Part shown: positions 9,571-17,028 of the stretch, piece after piece
How positions within the stretch are numbered: position 1 is the stretch's first letter
How the letters are laid out: every line of letters begins with the position of its first letter
Assembly (NCBI GenBank): GCA_009692865.1
Contig: SHYH01000007.1
Location: 1-42,071, forward strand
Length of the DNA stretch: 42,071 bases
Reading direction: 5' to 3'
Source: Dehalococcoidia bacterium
GTDB taxonomy: Bacteria; Chloroflexota; Dehalococcoidia; Lucifugimonadales; GCA-2717565
Notes under the pieces: model-generated
What the model was told of the DNA's origin: nothing
Database searches by the model: none
Seen by the model: only the letters and a program-made list of their open reading frames with translations
Program-made: the position numbers and the translations under genes

Positions 9571-9644
9571 GGGCGGTTAGCTCAGGTGGTTAGAGCGCGG
9601 TCCTGATAAGACCGAGGTCGGAGGTTCGAGTCCTCCACCGCCCA
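9571..9644 (+). tRNA. tRNA-Ile (anticodon GAT)
   Basis: GGGCGGT/ACCGCCC acceptor stem, CGGTC-CTGATAA-GACCG anticodon arm, GGTTCGAGTCC T-arm, discriminator A; no encoded CCA. Confidence 0.96.
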
Positions 9645-9678
9645 CTTACTGTTAACGCTAAAGCCGATGGAGCCCCCC

Positions 9679-14133: not shown

Positions 14134-14343
14134 GGCCTTCCTTTATTCAGTCTGGAAGAGTGGCTTCACTATACCAGCGGCCCTAGTCGGCGGCAAGGGC
14201 AGGGCCGTAGGGCCATTCCGATGGCGATTCTTTGCCAGGCCGGAAGAGGCTGAAAGTATGAGGATGGGAGCATTGACAGGGGCGACCCGTCGTGATATGT
14301 GTAGCAGGCATTGAGGAAACTGAAGGGCAGGGTTGGCTGACCG

Positions 14344-14901
14344 ATGATCAAGTGGCGGTGCACCCTTTGTGGTGAGTGCTGCAAGAGGTACGTCCCTCTC
14401 GTGCTTCCCGAAGACGTCCAGCGCATCCAAGACACCCTCCAGCGCCCTCTCTCCACCTTCGTCACATTTTACCGCCCCACCGATCTCGATGAGCCACTGG
14501 ACGATTCAGATGAGCGGCTTTTCCAGACCAAGGACGGCAAGGTGGCCATGGGTCTCTCCAGAGTGGAGCTGGAAGGAGAGGAGCGAGAGGGATGTGTGTT
14601 CCTCAAGAACAACCTGTGCTCGATTCATGAGTTCAGCCCCCTCCTCTGCCGCCAGTACCCCTTCCAGCCCCAGGATGCAGATGACTTGGACGGTCCTCTC
14701 CGGTTGGTGGAGAACGTGTGCTTTGGCAAGCACGCCGAGGACGAGGTGGTAGACGAAGACCCGTACCGGCGCAGCTATCGCCTCTTCCAACAGAAGTACG
14801 ATGAGCACGTGCAACAGATCGCCCAGTGGAACGCGAATCCGCAGTCCAGGGATAGGAGTATAGAGGACTTTCTCTCCTTTGTCGGGCTACAATGGAGCTA
14901 G
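14344..14901 (+). CDS. YkgJ-family cysteine cluster protein
   Basis: WRCTLCGECCKRYVPLV, CVFLKNNLCSIHEFSPLLCRQYPF. Confidence 0.92.
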   Translation: MIKWRCTLCGECCKRYVPLVLPEDVQRIQDTLQRPLSTFVTFYRPTDLDEPLDDSDERLFQTKDGKVAMGLSRVELEGEEREGCVFLKNNLCSIHEFSPLLCRQYPFQPQDADDLDGPLRLVENVCFGKHAEDEVVDEDPYRRSYRLFQQKYDEHVQQIAQWNANPQSRDRSIEDFLSFVGLQWS

Positions 14902-14950
14902 CCCGCTCCTGAGGGGTGAGGTTATTCCATAAGGAAAGGAGGAACTGGAC

Positions 14951-15061
14951 ATGACCACAAGACCAGCACCTAAACCCGCCGCGAAGCCTGCAGCCAGGCC
15001 TGCCGCCAAACCCGCAGCCAAGCCTGCAGCCAAGCCCGCAGCCAAGCCCGGACGCAGATAG
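14951..15061 (+). CDS. 36-aa basic Lys/Ala/Pro-repeat small protein
   Basis: ATG at 14951 after AAGGAAAGGAGGAACTGGAC; translation MTTRPAPKPAAKPAARPAAKPAAKPAAKPAAKPGRR*; strong terminator follows. Below the length cutoff of the ORF track. Confidence 0.75.
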   Translation: MTTRPAPKPAAKPAARPAAKPAAKPAAKPAAKPGRR

Positions 15062-15090
15062 TATTCTTGCCGCTAAGTCGGGCGCGAAAA

Positions 15091-15117
15091 GGGGGGCAGA
15101 GTATCGCTCTGCCCCCC
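15091..15117 (+). terminator. Strong intrinsic-type terminator hairpin
   Basis: GGGGGGCAGAG-TATCG-CTCTGCCCCCC perfect 11-bp stem followed by TGGCGTTTTCCTT. Confidence 0.8.
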
Positions 15118-15163
15118 TGGCGTTTTCCTTGGGGAGGAACAGACCGGCACGTCTGGTGAGGCG

Positions 15164-16519
15164 TCAGCCCTCCGCTTCTGTTTTCGTCCCCTCTCCCCTG
15201 ATCACCTCCGCCTCCGCCTCGGGGTCATCCACACCCAGGAGGGCCATGGCCCGGCGGCGAGAGTGCAGCCTAGCCTCCACCAGGGTCCGCTCCTCCTGCA
15301 CGAGGCGCCCCCGGTCCTGGGGAAGGACCGGCCCCCACAGGATGTTCGTGCGCAGCGGAAGGTATCGCTCCCCCGTGTGCTGTTCCAGGAGCCGCAGCAC
15401 CATATCGATGCGGCGGCGGTAGGCGGCCGTGCGGACGGGCCGCTTGCGTCGCACCTTTTGCAGAAGGGGGTGTATCTCCATATCCAGGGCCACCGCGGAG
15501 AGGCTGCGGGGGTTGTCCCCAAAGGTGGTCCCGGGGGTCTCGGCCAGGTCGTGGAGGGCGCGATAGAGAAGGTCCACGTAGTCGATGTGGAGGCGCCCGC
15601 CGTCCCCTTGGAGCAGGTCCAGCAGGTAGGCCCTGGCCCGCTCGGGCACCTCCCACACGGCCCCAGGCTGCACGGCGATGTCCTGGGCCTGCTCCACCCC
15701 CTCCAGGACGGCGATGGGGTTCCCCGAGAGCTCCAGGATGGAGGACATCCGGGAAAGGGCGCGGTTCATCTCCCTGGAAGGCTCCATAAGGGGAGGAACG
15801 TCTGACGTGCCCCAGAACCGCTTGGGCTCCCGCAAGTTGGGGAAGATGATGAAGGGGATGAAGCCGTAGGGGTTGGCACGGTCCTCCAGCACGGTGTCCT
15901 CCAGCCAGAGCTGAAAGGCGTGCTCCGTCCACACCTCCACCACTGTGGCCTTCCCCTCGGGGCGAGCACCCAGGGGCCGCGAGACGCCGTACAGGAGCTC
16001 CGCTGCCTCCCAGGTGATCTTGTAGCGGGTGGCCACCCTCCATATGCGTGAGGGGTCGTCCTCCACCTACCAGGCGTAGATGCCCTGGACGTCTTGGGTT
16101 GAGATGCGCACCTGCTGGGCGGCTGGGTCCCAGGTCACCTTGTAGCACCCGTCGCCCAAGATCGCTGCGTTCAGCTCGGTGTAGAAGTACATCTGCTCCA
16201 CCTGGTTGGCGAGGTACACCTGGCGCACGGCCTTCTCGGCGCGGCGGGCCCGCTGGCGGGCCTCCTCGGTGGCCTCCAGGGGCTCCAGGTCAAAGCTGAG
16301 GCCCGACGTGAGGTACGAGGCGAGCTTGTCGAAGAACACCTTGGCGTAGTTGAAGGTGAGGCGTCGTTCCCGCCGACGGCTGGCGCCCTGCCACTGGGCG
16401 TCCCTGTAGAACTCCAGGTGCTTCTGGTAGGAACGCAAGCGCTCCAAGTCCATCCTGGCCAACTGCTGGGGCAGCGTTAGCGTCGTGGTGACCATCTGGT
16501 ACCTCCCTTCCCTTAGCAA
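15164..16519 (-). pseudogene. Phage portal-like protein interrupted by an in-frame TAG
   Basis: ORF 16067..16519 (LTFNYAKVFFDKLASYLTSGL...GIYAW) is followed directly, in the same frame, by TAG (16067-16069) and ORF 15164..16066 (VEDDPSRIWRVATRYKITWE...). Confidence 0.7.
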
Positions 16520-16692: not shown

Positions 16693-17028
16693 TCAACCTG
16701 AACCCTTGCCCTTAGCCACCTGCCGTGGTGTGGGTGCGGGGCACGCCCTGCCGCGGGCCAGGATGCGGTGGACGGTGCGCACGCTCAGGTCAAAGCGGCG
16801 GGCTAGCTCTATGACCTTGGCCCCCTCCTGAAGCCGTACGCCCAACACCTCCTGGTCACGTTGGTCCCGCTTGCGGGACTGATACTCCAGGGGGTCGTCG
16901 TACTTGCACTGGGATAGGGGGCAGCGGAGGCACGATGGCGTCACCTCGCACCCCTCATCCCGATAAGGAAAGAACTCAGGCAGGGCGTCTATAATGGGTT
17001 CGTGGCGCTTTCGATTTGTTATGCCCAT
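16693..17028 (-). CDS. Small HTH protein with N-terminal Cys cluster
   Basis: CEVTPSCLRCPLSQCKYDDP then KVIELARRFDLSVRTVHRILAR (HTH). Lies upstream of the portal-like pseudogene. Confidence 0.7.
   Translation of the reverse strand: MGITNRKRHEPIIDALPEFFPYRDEGCEVTPSCLRCPLSQCKYDDPLEYQSRKRDQRDQEVLGVRLQEGAKVIELARRFDLSVRTVHRILARGRACPAPTPRQVAKGKGSG

Follow-up and report, generated by a model that had tools for sequence, protein, structure and literature searches.

A lysine-proline-repeat microprotein gene lies behind a ykgJ-type gene in Dehalococcoidia and may form a two-gene cassette with it

INTRODUCTION

Two described systems come closest to the locus reported here. KPAA repeats make up the C-terminal domain of AlgP, a protein located on polyphosphate granules; both this domain and peptides made of KPAA bind DNA (PMC9239181). 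FliB, a [4Fe-4S] lysine methyltransferase of flagellin, has eight conserved cysteines and a CX4CX3CC motif that its authors liken to the CX2CX2CC of the PF03692 family (PMC8598068). The function of PF03692 (YkgJ, UPF0153) is unsettled, and a peptide gene paired with a member of the family would name a candidate partner or substrate.

Here, we analyzed a 42,071-nucleotide stretch of DNA from a Dehalococcoidia bacterium, the whole of which we call the window, in which a gene for a lysine-proline (KP) repeat microprotein sits directly behind a ykgJ-type gene. The KP peptide resembles AlgP of Pseudomonas aeruginosa, and the C terminus of PhaF, in its KPAA repeats, its K-P-A composition, and its presumed disorder. 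However, AlgP has a 154-aa repeat region on an alpha-helical N-terminal domain (PMC9239181), whereas the peptides here, of 16 to 36 aa, are encoded separately behind an unrelated cysteine-rich protein or share its reading frame, and the relatives carry KPGAP. The upstream gene is a member of YkgJ/PF03692 by Pfam and by its eight cysteines, but no KP peptide gene follows the distant members (about 35 loci). Its product shares with FliB a cysteine cluster and eight conserved cysteines, and a lysine-rich candidate substrate adjoins ykgJ; unlike FliB, it has the CX2CX2CC rather than the CX4CX3CC spacing and is without an NCBIfam match, and no flagellin was found in these genomes. A microprotein of 16 to 36 residues is easily taken for low-complexity noise; this one keeps its position and signals across lineages and varies by synonymous substitution.

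RESULTS AND DISCUSSION

A KP-repeat ORF with the signals of a small gene

The elements of the locus are listed below.

14274..14302, + strand: weak candidate promoter of the two-gene unit, from sequence (TTGACA, 17 nt, TATGTG)
14344..14901, + strand: ykgJ-type gene, 185 aa, CxxCxxCC (PF03692), putative zinc/iron-chelating protein; Pfam E value 2.5e-11
14931..14942, + strand: Shine-Dalgarno (SD) region AAGGAAAGGAGG, eight bases ahead of the KP microprotein start codon
14951..15061, + strand: KP-repeat microprotein gene, 36 aa, MTTRPAPKPAAKPAARPAAKPAAKPAAKPAAKPGRR*; relatives lie behind ykgJ and show synonymous variation
15090..15118, + strand: hairpin, probable transcript end, 12-bp stem and 5-nt loop; equivalents in G050, G179, and G355

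The KP open reading frame (ORF) begins 49 nt past the ykgJ stop codon, and AAGGAAAGGAGGAACTGGAC precedes its ATG. All six lysines of the window peptide are followed by proline. Acidic, aromatic, cysteine, and histidine residues are absent; thus, the peptide is unlikely to hold a metal and is probably disordered. It matches no Pfam or NCBIfam domain and, at 36 aa in total, has no globular or helical N-terminal domain. A basic low-complexity tail of the KPAA type is present in the window peptide, and its relatives have KPGAP instead. The ORF, SD, and hairpin are placed as given in a preliminary description of this DNA, which took the ORF for a real gene that escapes length cutoffs. We agree that a real small gene, below such cutoffs, is very probable, because ORF, SD, and hairpin recur behind ykgJ in relatives. 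The ykgJ gene 49 nt upstream, the weak promoter candidate before it, and the arrangement common to relatives were overlooked in that description.

We assessed the uniqueness of the ORF within its own genome. The scan covered the window plus 60 other contigs, each to a length of up to 20 kb, which amounts to 928 kb, or about two thirds of the 1.41-Mb draft genome. It yielded 30,394 small ORFs (14 to 60 aa, all start codons), of which none but the window ORF had more than three KP dipeptides. Four small ORFs in the 928 kb consisted of at least 85% P, A, K, G, or R and had an SD; repetitive KP was found in the window ORF only. When a KPAAKPAAK-type DNA pattern was run against the whole genome with two mismatches allowed, the window site was the sole match. 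None of about 14,800 background 150-nt tiles contained an SD-preceded KP-rich ORF, the single match in that scan being the window ORF itself.

The upstream gene encodes an eight-cysteine YkgJ protein

The window YkgJ scored 44.5 bits against PF03692, above the gathering cutoff of 23. Residues C6, C9, C12, and C13, which form the CX2CX2CC motif, are invariant, and all eight cysteines are invariant in the five close homologs and also in the window together with 15 archaeal homologs. The NCBIfam release, which may or may not include a FliB model, gave no match to YkgJ up to an E value of 0.1. PADLOC and PHROGs gave no match either, and a profile search found no PDB relative. An AlphaFold2 model built from 16 sequences had a mean pLDDT of 51.6 and was therefore too poor for a fold search.

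KP peptides recur directly behind ykgJ in relatives

YkgJ was searched for in 250 genomes of the order, in two samples of about 390 genomes from the class, and in 400 genomes of the phylum. Close homologs were found in 4 of the 250 genomes of the order, G050 and G179 among them. Identity to the window protein was 60% for G050, 60% for G049, 54% for G179, and 53% for G355, which belongs to a different order. The genomes are drafts, and with only five close homologs (window included), the number of independent cases behind the statistics is small.

An SD-preceded KP peptide gene lies directly behind ykgJ, with a hairpin after it, in four of these five loci, that of the window included; in those four, the distance from the ykgJ stop codon to the KP ORF is about 50 nt at most, or the two are in frame. 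G050 has AAAAAGGAGGTGATAGC-ATG followed by MTMPKPGAPKPGMPKPGAPKPKPK (24 aa). G355 has AGAAAGGAGGTAATGCACAG-ATG followed by MPMRPKPKAKPKPKGR (16 aa), in which two of the five lysines are without a following proline. In G179 (L025, 769 to 967), the KP gene is present in tandem, and both copies encode MARPGAPKPGAPKPGAPKPGAPKR* (24 aa) behind an SD of their own. The SD, either GAAAGGAG or AAAAGGAGG, is at the equivalent place in G050, in both copies of G179, and in G355. The remaining locus, G049 (L003), has a close ykgJ with no KP gene behind it, which indicates that YkgJ can dispense with the KP peptide. The region past ykgJ in G049 is crowded with short CTCTTCTCC-type repeats, suggesting rearrangement.

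Farther away, no SD-preceded KP ORF was seen behind ykgJ at about 35 distant loci, archaeal and bacterial, and a scan of named genomes returned only archaeal YkgJ proteins (22 to 38% identity) without KP ORFs. A PKPGxPKPGxPK pattern, run against 247 genomes of the order, matched G050 and G179 only, always directly behind ykgJ. Repeat spacing drifts in the relatives, with KPGAP or KPKAKP in place of KPAA, and a pattern of three KPAA units matched the window and one other genome, G149. The search for KPAA microproteins behind YkgJ genes in relatives, suggested in the preliminary description, was thus positive in the more general form of KP-repeat peptides.

Synonymous variation and an apparent fusion

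Three codons (AGA/CGA, CCT/CCC, and GCT/GCC) distinguish the G179 copies from each other, and none of these changes alters the amino acid. Pairwise comparison of the six KPAA/RPAA units in the window gave 0, 5, and 30 base differences at codon positions 1, 2, and 3, respectively, so that third positions hold 30 of the 35. Both patterns, small as the numbers are, are as expected of a translated and constrained sequence. In G355, ykgJ continues in frame into the KP stretch (...EFLAYLGLPAEETGEKGGNAQMPMRPKPKAKPKPKGR*), and the internal SD and ATG are retained. The G355 YkgJ apparently carries the KP stretch as a C-terminal tail in a natural fusion, where a stop codon lost to sequencing error is possible. 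Fusions of this kind commonly point to two proteins that function together.

ykgJ and the KP gene are probably cotranscribed

Positions 15090 to 15101 of the window pair perfectly with 15107 to 15118, and the hairpin region folds with a z score of -2.98 relative to shuffled sequences. The stem was originally reported as a perfect 11-bp terminator stem (15091 to 15117); the pairing is indeed perfect, and the stem is one pair longer, at 12 bp. As for its role, the hairpin is real but makes an imperfect terminator: it is followed by GGCGTTTTCC, a short, weak T-tract in which TTTT begins four bases past the stem, and a consensus terminator scan of the window did not list the hairpin at 15090 to 15118. 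A stable hairpin nevertheless follows the KP gene or gene pair in four of four cases (window, G050, G179, and G355).

The sole promoter candidate for the window KP ORF lies upstream of ykgJ and scores below the scan threshold. Before ykgJ, G050 has TTGACA-17-TATAAT and G179 has TTGACA-17-TTTAAT; a weaker promoter-like site, TTGTCA-17-TAGCCT, precedes the G355 gene. Promoter-like sites before ykgJ and hairpins after the KP gene suggest that the unit probably consists of promoter, ykgJ, KP gene, and hairpin, in that order. Judged by these signals, ykgJ and kp are probably cotranscribed as one unit that ends at the hairpin.

A putative ykgJ-kp cassette and its alternatives

The explanation we favor, and consider reasonably probable, is a two-gene cassette whose translated KP peptide would act with YkgJ, either as a partner or tail or as a substrate. 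The KP ORF would be a translated microprotein gene, the second in a small ykgJ-kp transcription unit, and its product, rich in lysine and proline and free of acidic residues, would be a disordered partner of the eight-cysteine YkgJ. Such a peptide could be a detached basic tail that docks YkgJ on a polyanion (RNA, DNA, or the ribosome), or it could be a lysine-bearing substrate of YkgJ. We infer the partnership because the two genes stay adjacent, tend to be present or absent together, and appear fused in one genome. That the peptide stands alone, as first described, was not borne out: in four genomes it is paired with ykgJ as a two-gene unit, and in one of these the two share a reading frame. 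Counting against the cassette are the small number of close homologs, the G049 ykgJ without a peptide, a G149 peptide without ykgJ, and the possible error in G355. No description of a YkgJ and KP-peptide pair was found in the literature.

A narrower version, possible although unlikely, is that the KP peptide is a lysine substrate and that YkgJ, as an iron-sulfur enzyme, modifies (e.g., methylates) its KP lysines in a FliB-like manner. The FliB cysteine motif resembles the YkgJ CX2CX2CC, YkgJ has eight invariant cysteines, and the peptide offers repeated identical lysines, six of six before proline in the window. In addition, flagellin (PF00669) was not found in the draft genomes G000, G050, G179, and G355, whereas control genomes were positive; any FliB-like enzyme in those four genomes would thus have to act on a different substrate. 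However, the resemblance to FliB is at the level of the motif, and two of the five G355 lysines do not precede proline. Because NCBIfam gives YkgJ no match and flagellin was not found, the FliB comparison stays a lead of the "works like" kind. A compact peptide-modifying system, in which a YkgJ-family iron-sulfur enzyme would have a dedicated KP microprotein as its multisite substrate, is a slightly fainter possibility; if true, a family of unsettled function would gain a natural substrate.

Alternatively, and again tentatively, the peptide may be a free polycation, like a histone H1 tail or AlgP, that binds DNA, RNA, or polyphosphate by itself and is linked to ykgJ through cotranscription only. 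The DNA binding and granule location described for AlgP and KPAA peptides (PMC9239181) fit this, as does the absence of acidic residues. So does G149 (L055, reverse complement, 1489 to 1560), where a separate KPAA peptide gene away from ykgJ encodes the 23-aa MAAKKPAAKPAAKPAAKKPAKKK* with an SD (GAAGGAG) and a strong hairpin; no ykgJ was found in that genome. The group therefore probably includes basic microproteins that stand alone, and the lone G149 gene makes a stand-alone polyanion-binding role conceivable for the window peptide. However, a free polycation would leave unexplained both the co-occurrence with one YkgJ subfamily in four of five cases and the fusion, and the repeat drifts to KPGAP and shrinks to 16 aa in G355. 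PPK1-type polyphosphate kinase was not found in the four draft genomes, which weakens the polyphosphate-granule idea. The histone H1 likeness proposed in the preliminary description holds for composition; it goes no further, because the relatives keep KP but lose the KPAA spacing, no domain is present, the shortest peptide has 16 aa, and PPK1 was not found. A cis-acting element, whereby the hairpin, or the act of translating a proline-rich stretch, would govern read-through or the stability of the transcript, is highly improbable: a hairpin is close behind the ORF in every case, but the element would sit at the 3' end of the unit, downstream genes were not seen to be common among loci, and such an element would call neither for amino acid conservation at loci whose sequence otherwise drifts nor for a second complete copy. 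An attenuator was considered and rejected since no shared gene was seen downstream. Finally, it is extremely unlikely that the ORF is an untranslated, low-complexity product of chance. Slippage readily makes such repeats, and an AAGL-repeat ORF is also present antisense, on the opposite strand of the KP ORF; however, position, SD, and amino acid character are conserved, and substitutions are synonymous.

Neighboring genes in the window

A phage portal gene (PF05133 and PHROG portal families; 15164 to 16519, - strand) lies close to the KP hairpin. It is broken by one in-frame TAG (16067 to 16069) and looks like part of a decaying prophage. No relatives of YkgJ were found in phage records, plasmid records, or viral contigs; thus, there is no sign of phage carriage despite the adjoining portal gene. 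A small helix-turn-helix (HTH) protein is encoded at 16693 to 17028 (- strand), with matches to a phage late transcriptional activator family and to a resolvase-type HTH, and a tRNA-Ile (GAT) gene is found at 9571 to 9645 (+ strand).
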